Assembly (NCBI GenBank): GCA_030625775.1
Contig: DAOUQC010000003.1
Span: 1 to 64,000, forward strand
Source of the DNA: Verrucomicrobiota bacterium
Lineage (GTDB): Bacteria > Verrucomicrobiota > Verrucomicrobiia > Verrucomicrobiales > DEV007
DNA length: 64,000 bases
Direction: 5' to 3'
The position numbers and the translations under genes were made by a program. The notes beneath the pieces were generated by a model. It searched no databases. It saw only the letters and a program-made list of their open reading frames with translations, and was not told the DNA's origin. Of this stretch, positions 2,072-57,192 are shown piece after piece. Positions within the stretch are counted from its first letter, which is position 1. Every line of letters begins with the position of its first letter.

Positions 2072-3484
2072 ATGTTCGATACGATCTTCCACTACCTGAC
2101 CGTTGTTTATTCCACCTTGTTGCTTCGTTATCTGATTTTTGCGGGGATCGGCTTTCTTCTTTTCTATGTGTTTCTGCGTGATTATCTGCGCAACAAAAAA
2201 ATACAGCCCGGCTTTCCGCGAGGCGCTGATTATCGGCGTGAAATCTGGTATTCTGTCATCTCCCTGCTGATCTTTGCTTTTATTGGCTGGCTGGTGATCG
2301 GGCCGCATGCCCGTCCCTACACAAGGTGGTATTTCCATTTTAGTGATTACGGTTGGGGTTATTTTATTTTTTCCGTGGCCGCTATGATTGTGGTTCACGA
2401 TGCCTACTTCTATTGGACGCATCGCTTGATGCACTGGCGACCGCTGTATCGGCGGATGCATAAAATTCATCACGACTCGAGCAATCCAAGTCCCTGGGCA
2501 GCCTTCTCTTTTCATCCTCTGGAGGCAGTGGTGGAGGCAAGCATCGTCGTGGTGTTTGCCTTTCTGTTTCCTATTCACCCGTTTGCCATGGCACCGTTTT
2601 TCCTGTGGATGACGGCTTTCAATGTCAACGGTCACCTGGGTTACGAACTGTTCCCGTGCTGGGTCACTCGCAGTCCGCTGACAAGATGGGTGAACACTTC
2701 AACCAATCACAATCAGCACCATAAATATTTTCAGGGAAACTATGGGTTATATTTTCGCTGGTGGGACAAGTGGATGGGAAGCACGCACGAACAATACGAA
2801 AAAGAACTGGCGGAGGTGCAGCAGCGTTCGTTCGTTGCAGAGGATCGCCGTTTGGAATGGGACACTCAAGTTCGCAAGCTCTGGTTGCTGGCACCATATT
2901 TCGCGGTTGGGCTTGGATTATTTGTTTTTAAAAATGCCTGGCTAGCCCTGCTGTCATTCCACGTCTGTATGATCACTGCTCTGGTGATTCATCGTGCTCA
3001 ATGGAATTTTGCCAAGCTGTGGCAGGGCGGGCGTCTGCTCTGGTTGGCAGGGGGCACTCTGACTGTTTTTGGTTTCGGGTGGTGGCTTTCCAGCTTGGCG
3101 GGTCAGTATGAAGGCTACGGTGGCCGTCTCGCGGGAATGATGGAGGAGGTGGGTTTGCATGGTGTATCGCTGGCCGCTTTCGCGATCTATTTTTGTGCTG
3201 TGAATCCTGTGCTGGAGGAAGCGTTCTGGCGTGGGCTTTTTGGCAACAAAGGCAAACGTCCAATTTTGGCCGATTTGGCCTATGGCTGCTTTCACTTTTT
3301 GGTGCTCTTGCCGTTCACCGATGCCTACTACGCCACGATTGGTGCGGGAATGCTGGTGGCCATGGGCTATCTATGGAGGCAGGTCGCCAACCGTTCGGAC
3401 GGTCTGGCGCTTCCAGTTGCATGGCACGCCTTAGGTGACGCATCGGTCGTTTTTGTCGTCGCGGGACTGTTGCAGGGGTATTGA
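2072..3484 (+). CDS. Fatty acid hydroxylase/sterol desaturase family protein fused to C-terminal CPBP-like intramembrane protease domain
   Basis: Histidine boxes HDAYFYWTHRLMH, HKIHH, NHNQHH; C-terminal EEAFWRG, CFHFLV and WHALGDA motifs; ORF open from 1919 but ATG at 2072 fits the domain start better. Confidence 0.8.
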   Translation: MFDTIFHYLTVVYSTLLLRYLIFAGIGFLLFYVFLRDYLRNKKIQPGFPRGADYRREIWYSVISLLIFAFIGWLVIGPHARPYTRWYFHFSDYGWGYFIFSVAAMIVVHDAYFYWTHRLMHWRPLYRRMHKIHHDSSNPSPWAAFSFHPLEAVVEASIVVVFAFLFPIHPFAMAPFFLWMTAFNVNGHLGYELFPCWVTRSPLTRWVNTSTNHNQHHKYFQGNYGLYFRWWDKWMGSTHEQYEKELAEVQQRSFVAEDRRLEWDTQVRKLWLLAPYFAVGLGLFVFKNAWLALLSFHVCMITALVIHRAQWNFAKLWQGGRLLWLAGGTLTVFGFGWWLSSLAGQYEGYGGRLAGMMEEVGLHGVSLAAFAIYFCAVNPVLEEAFWRGLFGNKGKRPILADLAYGCFHFLVLLPFTDAYYATIGAGMLVAMGYLWRQVANRSDGLALPVAWHALGDASVVFVVAGLLQGY

Positions 3485-3592
3485 GGGAGGGACGGGATAG
3501 CTCGTGGTTTAGCTTTATTAGTTCTGGCTTGACGCAATTGTCGGGAGGTCATTAGAATCTGAGATTCTTCCTTTCTTCTTCGGTTCGTAACC

Positions 3593-4354
3593 ATGCTCAT
3601 CAAGCCCAATATTCCCTCCGATAATCGCATCGCCCTATTTATCGATGCCGATAATGCTCCAGCAGCAAAGATTGATTTTATTATTTCTGAGCTTGCTACT
3701 TATGGAGTGGTGAATATCAGACGTGCTTACGGTAATTGGAAAAAAACAGCACTCTCCGGGTGGGAAAAGGTGTTGCATGAGTATGCGGTCAAACCCATTC
3801 AGAATTTTGATATTGTGAAAGGCAAAAATGCCTCTGATATGGCCTTGTTGATTGATGCGATGGACACACTTTACACAAAGGATGTCGAGATATTCTGCTT
3901 GGTTTCATCAGACTGTGACTTCACGCCGCTGGTTCTGCGTTTGCGCGCAGAGGGGAAGCAGGTGATTGGTTTTGGTCGGAAAACCACACCTGAGCCATTT
4001 GTTAACTCCTGCAGTAAGTTCCTATATCTTGATGAGGAAACGTCTGCCAAAACTTCCAAAAATAAGAAAGAGGTGTCGATCAATCAGTTAAAAGGAAATA
4101 CTAAGCTGATGAATACCCTGCGAAATGCGGTTAAGGCGGCTACTGAAGATGATGGCTGGGCGCCACTCGGGCCGGTAGGCTCGTATATATCCAATCAAGG
4201 CCCCTTTGATCATCGTACTTTCGGTTTTGAAAAGTTGAGCGATATGTTTGCGGCGATTGACCTTTTTGAAGTGAAGCAAGTCCAGCGTGATCAACAAAAA
4301 GTAATAAGGGTTCGCTTGAAAAAACCAGCAGTGAGGAAAGCTTCAAAAAAATAG
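3593..4354 (+). CDS. NYN domain protein with C-terminal OST-HTH/LOTUS-like domain
   Basis: ALFIDADNAPAAKIDFI...LVSSDCDFTPLVLRLRAEGKQVIGFG (NYN/PIN-like); C-terminal DDGWAPLGPVGSYI... winged-helix style. Confidence 0.85.
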   Translation: MLIKPNIPSDNRIALFIDADNAPAAKIDFIISELATYGVVNIRRAYGNWKKTALSGWEKVLHEYAVKPIQNFDIVKGKNASDMALLIDAMDTLYTKDVEIFCLVSSDCDFTPLVLRLRAEGKQVIGFGRKTTPEPFVNSCSKFLYLDEETSAKTSKNKKEVSINQLKGNTKLMNTLRNAVKAATEDDGWAPLGPVGSYISNQGPFDHRTFGFEKLSDMFAAIDLFEVKQVQRDQQKVIRVRLKKPAVRKASKK

Positions 4355-49620: not shown

Positions 49621-50571
49621 TCAGTTTAAAATCCAGCTTTGGAAATAGTCCATCAAGATCAGTTCTCCGGGCAACTGCTTGCCGAGATAGTCTTTTTTAA
49701 GTTTGGAGAAGTTTGAGATTGATGAAAAACGGAATCCCCGATGCAAAGGGGTAAAAAAATCATCCTGATGACTAGGCAGGGTGTAGCGGGGATTCAGAGC
49801 TTGCACGGCTTCGTCAAAACGTTGCTGTCCATCTCCTACCGCGACTCCCAGAATCGCCAGATCCACGTTGCGGCTCGGAGGGAGGTGACCTGGCATGCCT
49901 CCGGAATCAATATAGATTTTTTTGCCTGCGATTTCGATGAGAAAAGCCAGTGGGGTGCCGACTTTCCAATCTCGCGGACGTATGGGGGCGCTTGAGATGG
50001 CTTTGGAAATCAGGCCGGGGATGGGGGTGCTTCCCAAGACCCGGTCATGCTTTGAGGAAAGTACATGGATGTTTGCCTTGCCGATTTGGTAGTGATTGCC
50101 TGGACGGGCACCAATGATCTTGGCAGAAGCAATTTTGGGTGCAGCGGCCTGGCATAAAAACTTCCCTGTAGGTGAGGTGATAATTTTTCCACTGAATTGT
50201 TGTTGGAGCGGAGGTACGTCAATGAGGTGATCGAAGTGACTATGCGTGACAAGCCAGCCATCAATGTGCGTGGGGAAGTTGGCCCTTTGGCTGTATTCAG
50301 CAATGAGGGGAGTCGAGGGAGAATAGGGGGCGTTCAGGGCAACCTTGATCAAAGAAATTCGCGAAAAAAAGGGATCGATGACGATGCTGGTATCGCGGGA
50401 ACGGATCAGGTATCCGTTGGTGCCGAGGTAGGTTATTTGGACTTCCCCGTGCTTGGGGCTAGGAGCATCACTTGCTTTTATGCCAACCAGTAATTCACGC
50501 TGTGTGTTCAATCGGCTGCCGCAACTGATGAGGGTGAGAGCAATGATGAGCAGGGAGAAGTAATGGCGCAT
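49621..50571 (-). CDS. MBL-fold metallo-hydrolase, lipoprotein-like
   Basis: ALTLISCGSR lipobox; YLGTNGYLIRSRDTSIVIDPFFSR; VTHSHFDHLIDVPPL. Confidence 0.88.
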   Translation of the reverse strand: MRHYFSLLIIALTLISCGSRLNTQRELLVGIKASDAPSPKHGEVQITYLGTNGYLIRSRDTSIVIDPFFSRISLIKVALNAPYSPSTPLIAEYSQRANFPTHIDGWLVTHSHFDHLIDVPPLQQQFSGKIITSPTGKFLCQAAAPKIASAKIIGARPGNHYQIGKANIHVLSSKHDRVLGSTPIPGLISKAISSAPIRPRDWKVGTPLAFLIEIAGKKIYIDSGGMPGHLPPSRNVDLAILGVAVGDGQQRFDEAVQALNPRYTLPSHQDDFFTPLHRGFRFSSISNFSKLKKDYLGKQLPGELILMDYFQSWILN

Positions 50572-50922: not shown

Positions 50923-51525
50923 CTACTCCGATTTTTTCAAAGTCAGTTTCGCCACTACCAGGATTTGATCCTGAACTTTGATGAACCCCAAAACGGAGGG
51001 AACCACGAGGCCGCTGGTTTTTAAGGAGACGGGAAAAAAAACCGTGCAAGTGATGCGTTTATCGGAGTAGGACCAGTCGCCCACCTTTCCGATGAGTTGC
51101 TGTTCCCCCCCTTTTATAGTCAAGGTGAAAGGGATGACGGTGGGGCGGGGGATGTTTCCTTCTAGCACCGGCTTGGTGCTGCTCGCCATTAGCTTAGTGA
51201 CATCAACGATGATGTCGGGGAAGGCGGCGACTTGCAGCACGTCATGCATTTTGGTATCACGTTTGGCGCTTTTGGTATCCATCTTGGCCGCTTTTACTTT
51301 TACTCGGCTAGAGACTTTGGCTGTGCTTGCTTGAGTCAGATCGGAAATAGCCACAGTAAAAGGTTCGGTTTTCACAGTTCCGGAAAAGTTGTGCAGCGTT
51401 GATTTTCCGGAAAAGGTGATCTCACATGAGCCGTTCCATTGATCGCTGCTTTGAGCGGTGGCGTGGCCGCTGCTGATAAAAATGATGGTGGCGACTAAGA
51501 CGGATATTGTGTTTAATAATTTCAT
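50923..51525 (-). CDS. YceI family periplasmic protein
   Basis: Signal peptide; CEITFSGKSTLHNFSGTVKTEPF; domain pattern of YceI-like proteins. Confidence 0.88.
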   Translation of the reverse strand: MKLLNTISVLVATIIFISSGHATAQSSDQWNGSCEITFSGKSTLHNFSGTVKTEPFTVAISDLTQASTAKVSSRVKVKAAKMDTKSAKRDTKMHDVLQVAAFPDIIVDVTKLMASSTKPVLEGNIPRPTVIPFTLTIKGGEQQLIGKVGDWSYSDKRITCTVFFPVSLKTSGLVVPSVLGFIKVQDQILVVAKLTLKKSE

Positions 51526-51565
51526 GGTCTGCTTGGGTGGGTGGGCTGTGTTTTTGTTCTAGTCG

Positions 51566-52309
51566 TTAATCTTTAGGCAAAACTTTCAAAAAATGAATGA
51601 TGGTCATACCGAAAAAGAAGCTTTGCGATTTCACCACTTCAAAACCGTGTTCGGAAAACTTTTGTTCAAGTTCCTTGTTGGCGGGATAAGCGCGGATACT
51701 GGCGGATATGTAACCGTGGACTTCCGGGTTGCCGTGTAAAACCAGGCCCCAGAAGCTGCCCCACAGCTTCAAGGTCCAGAATTGGAAAGTCTGTGCGATT
51801 TTGGAAGAAGGTTTTGAGAAATCGAGAAAGGCAAGTTGGCCTCCCGGTTTCATGGCACGGTGGAATTCGTCAAGGCACTCATCCAGATCGGGGGCATTGC
51901 GGATGGCGTAACTGCCAGTAAGAATGTCGATCGAGTGATCGGGTAAGTCCAGGTGAGTCATGTCCTGGCAGGAAAAGCGGATCCGTTGGTTGTTATTTCG
52001 GGTATTGGAGATATTGATCATTCCCTGGGTTAGATCGGTTCCGAGGATTTCCCCGTCCGGGTATTTGTCTGCCAGCAGAAAGGCCACGTCCCCCGTTCCG
52101 CAAGCAATGTCCACGCAGAAAGGAGCGGGCACTGTAGTCAGTCCTTGAATGAGGCACTTTTTCCAATAAGAATCCTGTCCCAAAGAAAGTCCGCGAGTGG
52201 CGATGTCATAACGCGCGGCGGATTCGGTGAAGTGTTTTTCGTTGAAGTGCCTTTTCCCTTCACTGGAGTTGATGTGGTCTTTTGCTTTGAGTTTGAGTTT
52301 CGCGTTCAT
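51566..52309 (-). CDS. UbiE/MenG-like class I SAM methyltransferase
   Basis: CVDIACGTGDVAFLLADKYP; GTDLTQGMI; SYAIRNAPDLDECLDEFHRAMKPGGQLAFLDFSKP. Confidence 0.9.
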   Translation of the reverse strand: MNAKLKLKAKDHINSSEGKRHFNEKHFTESAARYDIATRGLSLGQDSYWKKCLIQGLTTVPAPFCVDIACGTGDVAFLLADKYPDGEILGTDLTQGMINISNTRNNNQRIRFSCQDMTHLDLPDHSIDILTGSYAIRNAPDLDECLDEFHRAMKPGGQLAFLDFSKPSSKIAQTFQFWTLKLWGSFWGLVLHGNPEVHGYISASIRAYPANKELEQKFSEHGFEVVKSQSFFFGMTIIHFLKVLPKD

Positions 52310-52311
52310 GG

Positions 52312-54438
52312 TCAAGAAGGGTTATTTTTCCCCTGTGTGCAGAAAGTTAATTTGAGGCAGGCAGGTAGCACTAACAAATCGCAGGCGAGGGCGAACCACA
52401 TGGTCAAGCCGGAGAGTAGGGCAAAATAGACAGTCGGCTGGAAACTACCGAACATGGCAACCCAGAAGCCGAGCGATAAAGCCAGAGTAGTAGCGGTGAG
52501 CGCGTAGCCGGTGGATTGGGTGGTGGTATAGATGGCGGCATTGCAATCCCCTTGGAAGGATTTTTTAAAAGCAGAGAGATAATGGATGGTGTCATCCACG
52601 GCAATACCGATCACTACGCTGGCGATCATGGCAGTGCCGGTGCTGAGGTCGATGGAGAAGAACCCCATGATCGCAGCACTCATTAACAAGGGGATGATAT
52701 TGGGGATGATCGCTAGTCCCATGAAGCGAATCGACCGGAAGACGATGCCGATGGTCAGCAGGATTAAGGTCAAGGCGATGGCAAAACTTTTGATTTGGGA
52801 GGCGACCAAGTGATCGGATTCTGAGATCACACGGTAGAATCCCCCCGCTTCCTTGATTGTAAAAGAATCCCCTAAATGTTTTTTGGCTAGGGAGTGAATG
52901 TTGTCTATCAACTGCGCTCCTGTAGAGGATCCGATGGCGGAGATTCGCAGACTGATTCTTGTGGTGATCAAATCAGGAGTAATGAAGGGGGCTAGTTGTG
53001 AGTCTTGTAAAACCTTTGCAAAGGGGAAGTGTGTTGGAAAACCGGATAAAGGCTCTCCCTTGATTTCTAGTAGATCAATGACGCTCAGGCTGTGTTTGAC
53101 GTGGAGTAAAAGGCTCAGTGACTGCTGGAAATCTGCGATTTGCTGGAGTTCATCGATATGGGCAAAGGCCTGATGATTGCTTTTTGAGATCAGCAGTTCC
53201 AGGCAATTTACTCCAGTGAGATTTTGGTCAATAAATGTGGAGTCCTGGAATAGCTGGTTTTTTGGACCAAGGAAACGCAAAAGGTCGGTATTGTTTTGCA
53301 CTTTTTGCGATCCGTAGAAGCTGGCCGCAGCAATGGCGATAGTTGCAAAAATAATTTTACCAGGGTGTTTGACGGTGAAAGCAGAAATTTTTTTCAGAGA
53401 AGAAGTGAGTAGATTCTTTCTCTTTCGTGGGTGCAGGGTAGGGGCTTTGAGAAAAGAGAGTCCGACAGCCAATCCGCTGACTCCGATGAAATAAGAAATG
53501 GTGACCCCGATCGAGGTGAAGAGGCCAAATTGTCGAACGGCGGGGGTATCGCTGCTTAACAGACTGAGGAATCCTATGGCAGTAGTGAGCGTAGCAAAGA
53601 GGCAAGGGCGGTAGAGCTTTTTTATTGCAGCTGCAACGCGTTGTTTTTTATCTGTCTCGCTTCCCTGCAACCACTGCAAATAAATGTGGATGCTGGTGGT
53701 GACGGATAAGGTCATGATCACCGGCGGCAGCAGGGAGGTGATCATGTTGAGGGAGAATCCAAAAAAAGAATAAATCCCCAAGGTCCAAACAATACTCAGG
53801 GCAGAGATGAGTAGCGGAAAAATGAGGCCGGAAAGTTGGCGGGTGATCAGGAAAAGAACACAGCCTAAAATCAAAAAAGACAGTGGGGCAAATAACTTTT
53901 GATCTTTGAGAACAAGTTGTCCGGCTTCGTATTTTTGCAGAGGAAGTCCGGTGATATAACATTGCACCTGCTCGTTTTCATAGGTGGCTGCGAGAGCTTG
54001 GATTTCCTGAATGATGTGAGCCTGCAATTTTTTGTTATCCGAAAAGTCATCAAGTAAAATATGGATCCCTGCGGTGTTTCGTTTTTTCGAAATCAGCAAG
54101 CCCTCAAAAATAGATGCGCTGGAGTAGTTGTGATCAGCAAGGCTGATCACTTGTTTAACGCCTTCGAGGGCTTGAAGTTCAAAGCCGATTTCTTGGATCA
54201 AATCTTTGCCGTGAGAATCGAGGATGTCGTTTTTATGAATGGCTAGAATGATGGAGTCTCCACTTTGGAAAAGATCCTCAAACTCTTTTTCGACCAGCGC
54301 CTGAATTTCATTGTCAGCGTCCATCGAACGGTTGTCCTGATCCACTCGCAGATTCAGGCACTGGAAGGCAAAAAACGCAGTCAAAGCTGCGATTACAATC
54401 AGGTAGGGAATTCTCCAGCGATCAAGAAACGACGGCAT
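52312..54438 (-). CDS. MMPL/RND superfamily exporter
   Basis: 708 aa; two TM repeats; MIASVVIGIAVDDTIHYLSAFKK; start overlaps the preceding PKS gene end by 17 nt. Confidence 0.93.
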   Translation of the reverse strand: MPSFLDRWRIPYLIVIAALTAFFAFQCLNLRVDQDNRSMDADNEIQALVEKEFEDLFQSGDSIILAIHKNDILDSHGKDLIQEIGFELQALEGVKQVISLADHNYSSASIFEGLLISKKRNTAGIHILLDDFSDNKKLQAHIIQEIQALAATYENEQVQCYITGLPLQKYEAGQLVLKDQKLFAPLSFLILGCVLFLITRQLSGLIFPLLISALSIVWTLGIYSFFGFSLNMITSLLPPVIMTLSVTTSIHIYLQWLQGSETDKKQRVAAAIKKLYRPCLFATLTTAIGFLSLLSSDTPAVRQFGLFTSIGVTISYFIGVSGLAVGLSFLKAPTLHPRKRKNLLTSSLKKISAFTVKHPGKIIFATIAIAAASFYGSQKVQNNTDLLRFLGPKNQLFQDSTFIDQNLTGVNCLELLISKSNHQAFAHIDELQQIADFQQSLSLLLHVKHSLSVIDLLEIKGEPLSGFPTHFPFAKVLQDSQLAPFITPDLITTRISLRISAIGSSTGAQLIDNIHSLAKKHLGDSFTIKEAGGFYRVISESDHLVASQIKSFAIALTLILLTIGIVFRSIRFMGLAIIPNIIPLLMSAAIMGFFSIDLSTGTAMIASVVIGIAVDDTIHYLSAFKKSFQGDCNAAIYTTTQSTGYALTATTLALSLGFWVAMFGSFQPTVYFALLSGLTMWFALACDLLVLPACLKLTFCTQGKNNPS

Positions 54439-55528
54439 CGATAATTGCGGTTTCGATGGTTAATCCCGGGCCAAAAGCCATGGCGCAAAGGCGGTCACCA
54501 TTTTTGGTAGACGGATTTCTCAGGATTTCACTGAGAATAAAAAGTATCGTCGGGCTGCTCATATTACCGAACTCCGCCATCACATTTCGCGATGCCTGAA
54601 TCTGATCCGGACGTATTTCCAGACTGCTTTCGATTTTGTCGAGAATGGCCCTCCCACCCGGATGCACCGCCCAAGTGTCTATGTCCTCAAGCTTTAAGTC
54701 GCAGTCGGCGAGGATTTTGCTGACAGTTTCTTCAATCTCTGCCCCGATTATTCTCGCTATGTATTTTGAGAGGACAAGATTGAATCCGTAGTCACCAATG
54801 TCCCAGGCCATGTCTTGTGCGCCTTCCAGGGTAAGCTCACAGGCAAAACTTTTCAGGTCAAGAGCACGCTGGCCGGGTGCCGGTTCATGATTGTTGACTA
54901 ACACCGCAGCAGCCCCATCAGCAAAAACCGAATTGGCAAGAATGGTGTCCAAATCGTCTTTTAATCTCAAGTGAAGCGAACAGAGCTCGATGCAGATAAT
55001 CAGCACATTGGCTGAAGGGTCTGCCTGACAAAACTGGGAGGCCATTTTTAATGCGGGAAAGGCTGCGTAACAGCCCATGAAGCCCAAATGGAATCGTTGC
55101 ACGGAAGGGGGCAAGTCCAGAGCGTCGACGACTTCCAGATCGGGGCCGGGATTATAAAACCCGGTGCAGGATACGGTGATCAGGTGGGTGATATCCCCGG
55201 CAGAAATGCCGGGACAGTTTTTCACCGCCTGCTGGGCGATTTCCCTGATTAGGATGCGGGATTCCTTGGTGTAAATTTCGTTTCTCTCACCGGTTGAAGG
55301 TTCTTCTGAAGATTCATTGGTGCGATATAGCGACAACGAATCCGAACCGCCTTTACCAAAGTCCTTAACAACGCTGTGGCGTTTGTCGATATTCGAACCT
55401 GCGTAGACCTGGTTGATATAGCGCTTGGCTTTTTTATTCTGCGTCCATGTTTGCATGACCTCGCAGGCGTATTCCTGAGAGTAACTGCTCTCCGGCACGA
55501 GAGTTTCGATATGTTGAATCCACGGCAT
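54422..55528 (-). CDS. Type III polyketide synthase (chalcone/stilbene synthase-like)
   Basis: ITVSCTGFYNPGPDLEVV (Cys), WAVHPGGRAILD (His), FGNMSSPTILFIL (Asn), MAFGPGLTIE. Confidence 0.93.
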   Translation of the reverse strand: MPWIQHIETLVPESSYSQEYACEVMQTWTQNKKAKRYINQVYAGSNIDKRHSVVKDFGKGGSDSLSLYRTNESSEEPSTGERNEIYTKESRILIREIAQQAVKNCPGISAGDITHLITVSCTGFYNPGPDLEVVDALDLPPSVQRFHLGFMGCYAAFPALKMASQFCQADPSANVLIICIELCSLHLRLKDDLDTILANSVFADGAAAVLVNNHEPAPGQRALDLKSFACELTLEGAQDMAWDIGDYGFNLVLSKYIARIIGAEIEETVSKILADCDLKLEDIDTWAVHPGGRAILDKIESSLEIRPDQIQASRNVMAEFGNMSSPTILFILSEILRNPSTKNGDRLCAMAFGPGLTIETAIIDAVVS

Positions 55529-55567
55529 GAGATGAGCAGGGCAGGTTGGTACAAACCAGGAAGCGTT

Positions 55568-56761
55568 TCAACTTCCAATAATTTGCAAAAATTTCGTAAA
55601 AGGCAGACAAATAATAGAAGCTGAAGCCGATGCTGATTGGCATCGCAAGGCGTTATTGATCAGAAAAGGCAAACGGGTGCCGGATAAAACCGGGATAAGG
55701 AGCTTTCTCAGTCGACTCCGTAACAGAGATGCGGTGAGCTGGGTAAAGCCGCGATACACCCGGCTCATCTCTTTGCAATTGGCTGCATAGGTCTTTAAGG
55801 CTTCATCCTCTGAAACACCATTTTGTAAAATGGCCACTAATGCGGTGGCCGCGTGCTCAGACATCATCACTCCGTGGGTGATTCCCATTCCGGCAATGGG
55901 GTCGAGGCTTTCAGTGGTATCACCAAGCAGCAGGATAGAACGGTAACTGTAAGGGCGTTTAGTTACTCCGACCGGGCCAACAACGAGGGGGCTGCCCGTC
56001 ACTTCGCCCCGAAAGGATGATTTTTCTGCAGCTTCACGCAACAGTTGTTGTTGCACCGATTCATCCTGTAAATGGGCAACCCGCTCTTTTCTGGCAAGCA
56101 TAGCAACATTCAGTGTCGTGTCGGATACCGGTGTGCAGTAAACTTCGAATCCATCTTTTAGTAGAATCAGTACTTCCCCCGTCGTTTTTTTATATTTGCC
56201 CTCCAGAACAAAATTGATTCCCCACAAGGGCAGCTTTTTCTTTGTTGTTTTCGGGATGCCCAGTTTTGCCGCATTCACCGAATTTGTTCCATCGGCCAAT
56301 ACTAGATAACGTGCGGAAATTTGGCTGCCGTCAGCAAGGTTGATTAAATAATTGGATCCTTCCATCACTATGTCAGTAACTGAAGATCCTAAAAAAGGGT
56401 CTACAGAGGGCAAAGCGGATGCGTGATCAGTGAGCAGTTTATCCAAGCGGTATCTTGGAATGCCGATTCCCTTGAGTGTGGGATGATGGCCCGAGGCAAA
56501 TTCAAATGACCGTTTTTCCAAGCCCAGACGAAACGAAAAGAATGGCTGTCCTCCCAGTTTAAGAATTTCCTCTTCCAGGCCGAGTTGGTATAAGGAGTTG
56601 AGAGCAATGTCGGAAATGCCCTCTCCGCAAGCTTTTCGCCTGGGGAAGCTTTGTTTGTCGATCAAAGCGGTCGTCAGCCCCTGCTGACCCAGGCGGATAG
56701 CCAGAGACGCACCCGACACTGAAGCCCCTACGATGGCAACATCGAATAACGGGGCTTTCAT
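55568..56761 (-). CDS. FAD-dependent oxidoreductase (geranylgeranyl-reductase/aromatic hydroxylase-like)
   Basis: FDVAIVGASVSGASLAIRLGQQGLTTALIDKQSFPRRKACGEGIS; LLLGDTTESLDPIAGMGITHGVMM. Confidence 0.9.
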   Translation of the reverse strand: MKAPLFDVAIVGASVSGASLAIRLGQQGLTTALIDKQSFPRRKACGEGISDIALNSLYQLGLEEEILKLGGQPFFSFRLGLEKRSFEFASGHHPTLKGIGIPRYRLDKLLTDHASALPSVDPFLGSSVTDIVMEGSNYLINLADGSQISARYLVLADGTNSVNAAKLGIPKTTKKKLPLWGINFVLEGKYKKTTGEVLILLKDGFEVYCTPVSDTTLNVAMLARKERVAHLQDESVQQQLLREAAEKSSFRGEVTGSPLVVGPVGVTKRPYSYRSILLLGDTTESLDPIAGMGITHGVMMSEHAATALVAILQNGVSEDEALKTYAANCKEMSRVYRGFTQLTASLLRSRLRKLLIPVLSGTRLPFLINNALRCQSASASASIICLPFTKFLQIIGS

Positions 56762-56781
56762 AACAGTCGAGGAATTATTGG

Positions 56782-57192
56782 TTAATTGACGTGGATGCCA
56801 GGACGCCCGATCGCAGCGTGGCAATTGGTGCACTGCCCGCGTAGGTTAGTGAAGGCGGCAGTGGTCGCTTTTTCCTGACCTCCTGCCAAGGCCTTTCTCA
56901 GGTCTTTGTAGGGCCCGGATTCCCAAGCGCTCAGCATGGGTTTGAGGTTGACCTCATTGCCTGTTTTTGATTGCACCACGGGAGCCAGTTCCACTGCCCC
57001 GCGCACGCCGCTTCCGATCGCGGCAGCGGCGCTGTTTGCTCCCGTATAATCCCCTTTTTCCGCCTTTTTTGCCGATTGCTTGAGCATGGCGTTTGCTTCC
57101 TGCATTTTTTGAGCACTTGGTGTCGTGACACAGCTGCTTAGGGTTAAAAGGCTTGCGCCGAGGAGAAGGATTGAGGAGACAGATAGTTTCAT
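56782..57192 (-). CDS. Small monohaem c-type cytochrome lipoprotein
   Basis: LLTLSSCVTT lipobox; single CTNCH near C-terminus; 136 aa. Confidence 0.75.
   Translation of the reverse strand: MKLSVSSILLLGASLLTLSSCVTTPSAQKMQEANAMLKQSAKKAEKGDYTGANSAAAAIGSGVRGAVELAPVVQSKTGNEVNLKPMLSAWESGPYKDLRKALAGGQEKATTAAFTNLRGQCTNCHAAIGRPGIHVN

Follow-up and report, generated by a model that had tools for sequence, protein, structure and literature searches.

Introduction

Several described bacterial operons encode a type III polyketide synthase (PKS) together with a flavoprotein and a methyltransferase (MT), and this three-enzyme core is already known from the srs, pkq, hid and planctomycetal operons. The same three activities define the pkq operon of mycobacteria and Streptomyces (PMC9927152), and PkQ formation has been described as proceeding through O-methylation plus oxidation (PMC5916927). 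In 'Saltatorellus ferox' Poly30, a five-gene operon encodes a PKS, a lipid/isoprenoid-binding protein, a lipoprotein and two MTs (Milke et al. 2024, PMC10896814). The S. ferox PKS was shown to make (methyl)alkylresorcinols, and the lipid/isoprenoid-binding protein was mentioned in passing, without analysis (PMC10896814).

Two further protein families are relevant here. Bound octaprenylphenol or ubiquinone-8 has been observed in YceI lipocalins, and BcnA/LcoA shields Burkholderia envelopes against lipid peroxyl radicals (PMC9113575). The physiological ligand of YceI proteins is debated (PMC5350466). RND lipid transporters can be encoded with the synthesis genes of their lipid, such as BstA for sterols and HpnN for hopanoids (PMC10942540). 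The question of what YceI lipocalins bind in nature is not settled, and hardly any exporters are known for the phenolic lipids or polyketide quinones of bacteria.

Gene Organization of the Operon

The window analyzed here is a stretch of 64,000 nucleotides from contig C119 of the Verrucomicrobiota genome G000. The sequence-only reading had described six minus-strand genes at 50923-57192 with specific gaps and one overlap, and all of these were confirmed to the base. The first gene encodes a c-type cytochrome lipoprotein (56782..57192, minus strand), and its stop codon is separated by 20 nt from the ATG (56761) of an FAD-dependent oxidoreductase (55568..56761, minus strand). The open reading frame of this flavoprotein runs to 56833, and ATG 56761 is the likely start. 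After 39 nt follows the ATG of the type III PKS (54422..55528, minus strand), whose reading frame overlaps by 17 nt with that of an MMPL/HAE3-type RND transporter (52312..54438, minus strand). The stop codon of the transporter gene is 2 nt from the ATG (52309) of a UbiE/COQ5-type SAM-dependent MT (51566..52309, minus strand), and 40 nt separate the MT stop codon from the ATG of a secreted YceI-family lipocalin-like protein (50923..51525, minus strand). Pfam scores are above the cut-offs for FAD_binding_3 (91 bits), chalcone/stilbene synthase (Chal_sti_synt N/C, 79.5/94.3 bits), MMPL (75 bits), Ubie_methyltran (130.9 bits) and YceI (34.1 bits against a gathering score of 23.7). Intrinsic terminators were sought between the genes of the operon and none stands out, the signal being at chance level. 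Judged from its sequence, this gene set is a real operon.

The flanks are ordinary, with a glutamyl-tRNA synthetase-like gene upstream, and a metallo-beta-lactamase (MBL)-fold lipoprotein gene and thrS downstream, and they are syntenic in the sister species G001. The MBL-fold lipoprotein (49621..50571, minus strand, assigned with Pfam) is separated from YceI by a gap of 351 bp. It is found at the same position in G001 with 72% identity, and it is outside the conserved cluster.

The cytochrome carries a CTNCH motif and the lipobox LSSC. Its CxxCH motif and helical content fit a cytochrome c', while the score for PF01322 (20.1 bits) is below the gathering score of 26.5, and the fold search returned weak cytochrome c'/b562 matches with E-values of about 0.5 or worse. 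The protein is 88% identical in G001. Homologues with about 40% identity in two genomes of the same family, G024 and G035, are on contigs other than the PKS contigs, and the cytochrome is within 7 kb of the PKS at 1 of 39 core-clade loci (the window excluded). The cytochrome had been proposed as a component of the system; it is instead a genus-specific neighbor, which may be co-transcribed with the operon.

The Type III PKS and Its Predicted Product

The catalytic triad of the window PKS is C153/H289/N322, and it is conserved throughout the PKSs aligned. W242, in the motif DMAWDIG, corresponds to W281 of ArsB, the site that decides between resorcinol and pyrone, a correspondence placed via Steely1, PKS18 and the nine-residue spacing to the CHS-Phe265 site rather than by an ArsB alignment. 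This placement is indirect, since ArsC (3VS8) is absent among the PDB matches listed. In the PDB alignments the column holds Trp in Steely1 and Leu in the pyrone-forming PKS18. W242 precedes Leu251, the CHS-Phe265 equivalent, by nine residues, and in ArsC G284 precedes Met293 by the same distance; the W281G substitution switches ArsB from resorcinol to pyrone (PMC6274091). Trp is present at the W242 column in all core-clade PKSs examined and in the Deinococcus, Psychrobacter, Paludisphaera and Roseomonas PKSs described below, while the residue in most outgroup PKSs is F or Y.

Planctomycetal relatives and the S. ferox PKS make 5-alkylresorcinols in C. glutamicum (PMC10896814). Because the Cys-His-Asn triad and the Trp at the ArsB site are present in all core-clade members, the product of the window PKS is likely to be an alkylresorcinol. 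This agrees with the initial proposal that the PKS serves phenolic-lipid synthesis. The best NCBIfam match of the PKS is DpgA, probably because NCBIfam has few type III PKS models, and membership of that family was rejected on the score (180 bits against a cut-off of 425). A contig scan recovered a single locus, with a 90%-identical PKS, in Verrucomicrobiota contig JAADHD010000251.1.

The Flavoprotein and the Methyltransferase

Two types of flavoproteins occupy the cluster position, as distinguished by their motifs. The GxGxxG/DG/GDAAHxxxPxGGxG aromatic-hydroxylase form is found in Deinococcus and in most verrucomicrobial clusters examined. The window flavoprotein does not have the GDAAH form and belongs to the KxCGE (GGR/hid-like) type, as do those of Psychrobacter and Roseomonas; Paludisphaera has KVCGA. 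In G029, from another genus of the same family, the flavoprotein shares its C-terminal motifs with the window protein, and its N-terminus is off the contig. The geranylgeranyl-reductase superfamily gives the best NCBIfam match of the window flavoprotein, at 101 bits and under the cut-off. A geranylgeranyl reductase proper is not favored, as VYCTPV is read where YxWxFP, which we take to be the motif of that family, would be expected. By analogy with SrsC and HidB, both types are likely to hydroxylate the ring, and the window protein is a predicted ring hydroxylase, its geranylgeranyl-reductase match and lack of the GDAAH form counting against this activity. With the planctomycetal enzymes in C. 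glutamicum, oxidation to quinones was not detected.

The MT scores above the NCBIfam UbiE/MenG subfamily cut-off (165.6 against 158.35 bits) and below the MenG equivalog cut-off (172 against 216 bits). A stronger UbiE homologue is encoded on contig C132 of the same genome, with 174 bits against 131 for the operon MT, and with 220 against 166 bits for TIGR01934. Profile searches found a MenG-like UbiE outside the cluster in 13 of 14 relatives tested; G003 is the only one without such a protein at the cut-off. G002, of the same genus, has MenG and no cluster. The cluster MTs form two groups apart from the MenGs in the tree, whose detail is unsure because some branches are very long. Thus, the possibility that the operon MT is the sole menaquinone MenG, unconnected to the PKS, was rejected: by scores and tree grouping, it is a protein distinct from MenG. 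The UbiE/COQ5 type suggests C-methylation.

Conservation of the Gene Neighborhood

The order flavoprotein-PKS-MMPL-MT-YceI is identical in G029 (locus L039), where the MT, covered by an opposite-strand reading frame, was confirmed by translation and profile search, and in the sister species G001, where it spans two contigs. Kept in both genomes, the order is not due to chance. In G033 the order is flavoprotein-MMPL-MT-YceI with the PKS convergent. A distant family (f34) has YceI-PKS-MMPL-flavoprotein-MT-second MT, and order-level relatives (f4) have YceI-PKS-flavoprotein, several f4 clusters being without MT. Loci L090 and L094 have YceI-secreted protein-MT-PKS, with a membrane protein before the MT in L094. 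The neighborhood is kept across families and classes.

A flavoprotein is present at 28 of 39 core-clade loci and a UbiE-type MT at 13. YceI is found at 18 of the 39 and MMPL at 8, a loose count in which two are distant in sequence or position. This sample, from which the window was left out, was partly gathered through YceI, and contig ends hide some genes. Present in about half and a fifth of the clade clusters, respectively, YceI and MMPL are optional. The MMPL-bearing clusters fall in three separate groups of the PKS tree, made with a quick method.

Triads of PKS, MT and flavoprotein are found in five phyla, this phylum included. Plasmid-borne triads were observed in Deinococcus (L145 and L146, including D. 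radiodurans) and in Microbacterium, Psychrobacter, Paludisphaera and Roseomonas (L147, L148, L149 and L150). The PKS of the Microbacterium triad is in two pieces, without annotation.

Other genes recur at these loci. An OmpR-type response regulator and a HAMP histidine kinase adjoin the PKS/YceI cluster in several families (L038:1771-3968; L083:8905-10697; also L084, L087, L089, L090 and L056). In G001 the pair separates the tRNA-synthetase-like gene from the cytochrome, and it is absent from the window. It is a possible regulator of the cluster. A family of secreted proteins of 160-190 aa with no Pfam match is found between YceI/PKS and other genes where MMPL is absent (L080:9873-10391, L089:9981-11342, L090:7589-8071, L091:10063-10611, L092:1924-2502 and L094:7788-8270), and may be the counterpart of the protein listed as a 'putative lipoprotein' in the S. 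ferox operon. In many clusters a second MT accompanies the UbiE-type MT (L090:6124-7365 with 3171-3935; L094:6315-7019 with 3440-4132; L083:1660-2589 with 2405-3298). The membrane protein at L094:7027-7791 has a weak DUF1295/ERG4-like match.

Association of YceI and MMPL with the PKS

The window YceI protein has a Sec-type signal peptide by inspection; its single-sequence AlphaFold model has a pLDDT of 38, too low for the model to be used. A search with it through 388 genomes of the phylum found 22 loci in 21 genomes, 16 of the 22 being beside a PKS. YceI is present in 16 of 30 genomes with a core PKS, whereas it is present in 5 of the 358 others (Fisher p = 2.7e-16, the genomes not being independent). 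A single clade does not explain this association, since at least seven families are represented among the cases.

With the MMPL profile, five genomes reach 788-1147 bits, and each of them has the PKS cluster; nowhere else does the score exceed 327 bits. In G100 the MMPL gene is split between two contigs. The nearest PDB relatives are HpnN and Patched-type transporters, and the score for the NCBIfam HpnN model is 94 bits against a cut-off of 751.85. The window protein thus belongs to a subfamily limited to PKS-cluster genomes.

These whole-genome association tests indicate that YceI and MMPL are dedicated parts and not passers-by. The proposal that both belong with the PKS was borne out by association counts and profile scores, which make them specific companions of the PKS clade. 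Their occurrence almost only beside an alkylresorcinol-type PKS ties both to one small-molecule pathway.

Predicted Function

The operon product is very probably a long-chain phenolic (quinone-like) lipid. In the first step, the PKS would extend a long-chain acyl thioester by condensation with three malonyl units, then close the ring by a C2-C7 aldol reaction to a 5-alkylresorcinol; this prediction is well supported by the residues and the tested relatives. For the chemistry beyond the resorcinol, the transport, the carriage and the physiological role, we infer the following route. The flavoprotein would hydroxylate the ring to yield an alkyl hydroquinone or quinone, and the MT would methylate a ring carbon, as UbiE does in quinone synthesis. 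The MMPL/HAE3 transporter, in a role like those of HpnN and BstA, may lift the lipid from the inner membrane, although its substrate could be another lipid. For passage through the periplasm, the YceI lipocalin would carry the lipid in the way that its relatives carry octaprenylphenol or ubiquinone-8; the position of its gene inside a phenolic-lipid operon suggests the operon product as the ligand. In the envelope, the lipid may act as a quinol-type antioxidant or an auxiliary electron carrier. Overall, our preferred reading, which we consider fairly probable, is that a C-methylated alkyl (hydro)quinone with such a role is synthesized, exported and then carried by a lipocalin.

A more specific version can be offered tentatively, in which the operon constitutes an envelope redox shuttle, and the cell's own polyketide (non-isoprenoid) quinol is made specifically as the YceI cargo, loaded by the dedicated MMPL transporter. 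If true, the shuttle would parallel the BcnA/LcoA antioxidant system, except that its ligand would be purpose-made, and it would supply a physiological ligand for a YceI protein. With five genes, the questions of the YceI ligand and of phenolic-lipid export become testable.

It is rather unlikely that MMPL and YceI place a phenolic lipid in the outer membrane solely as a structural component, altering permeability or replacing phospholipids. The resorcinols of Azotobacter ArsB are cyst-coat components (PMC6274091), HpnN, a lipid-localizing transporter, is one of the nearest relatives of the MMPL protein with a solved structure, and the MT is missing from several f4 clusters. However, resorcinols are turned into quinones by two activities, those of an MT and a flavoprotein, and the operon encodes both, the MT being of the UbiE type; YceI relatives carry quinones (PMC9113575).

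The triad might instead make a PkQ-like respiratory quinone as an electron carrier of the inner membrane, in which case MMPL and YceI would deal with surplus product or with a different lipid. The three activities of the pkq operon (PMC9927152), the same Trp in the PKS and the cytochrome adjoining the operon in this genus agree with such a product. This reading is improbable, because a cluster-only MMPL and a secreted carrier argue that the product leaves the inner membrane, the PkQ route is by O-methylation and oxidation (PMC5916927) while the window MT is UbiE/COQ5-like, and the cytochrome is not conserved.

That the genes for MT, MMPL and YceI serve menaquinone synthesis or housekeeping and adjoin the PKS by chance is extremely improbable: the MT exceeds the UbiE/MenG subfamily cut-off, but nearly every genome tested has a separate, better MenG, G002 has MenG without the cluster, the trees set the cluster MTs apart, and YceI and MMPL are statistically associated with the PKS.

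Comparison with Known Systems

The sequence-only reading, sound for the most part, had recognized the logic of the Streptomyces srsABC pathway, and this core is present. With srsABC/pkqABC of Actinomycetota the window shares, in one operon and on one strand, a type III PKS with the resorcinol-type Trp, a flavoprotein and an MT. It differs in the UbiE/COQ5 type of the MT, the dedicated MMPL and YceI, the Gram-negative host and the gene order. The hidABC and planctomycetal MT-oxidoreductase-PKS operons have the same three activities, and the flavoprotein in the hid-like planctomycetal triad of Paludisphaera matches that of the window in its KxCGE-like type. The MT is of a different type, and a transporter and a carrier are added. 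The order MT-oxidoreductase-PKS, the more conserved of the two reported for hidABC, is not seen in the window, which has flavoprotein-PKS-MMPL-MT-YceI.

The lipid/isoprenoid-binding protein of S. ferox is presumably a YceI protein, judged by its description. No MMPL or flavoprotein is described for that operon, and its architecture is closer to L090 and L094 than to the window. BcnA/LcoA likewise includes a secreted YceI lipocalin proposed to act with a bound quinone. The partner of that lipocalin is a cytochrome b561, and Pfam found no such domain in the genes of the window operon, which is predicted instead to make its lipid itself. As with HpnN and BstA, an MMPL-fold transporter is encoded with a lipid-synthesis set; the window protein is far below both equivalog cut-offs and represents a separate subfamily.

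The literature search found no paper joining 'alkylresorcinol' with 'YceI', nor a type III PKS with MMPL and YceI. The earlier suggestion of an undescribed system goes too far: the core is known, and an operon with a lipid/isoprenoid-binding protein has been mentioned in S. ferox (PMC10896814), while the added MMPL/YceI pair is unusual. What is new here is the dedicated MMPL and YceI recurring beside the PKS across the phylum, without prior description as a system.
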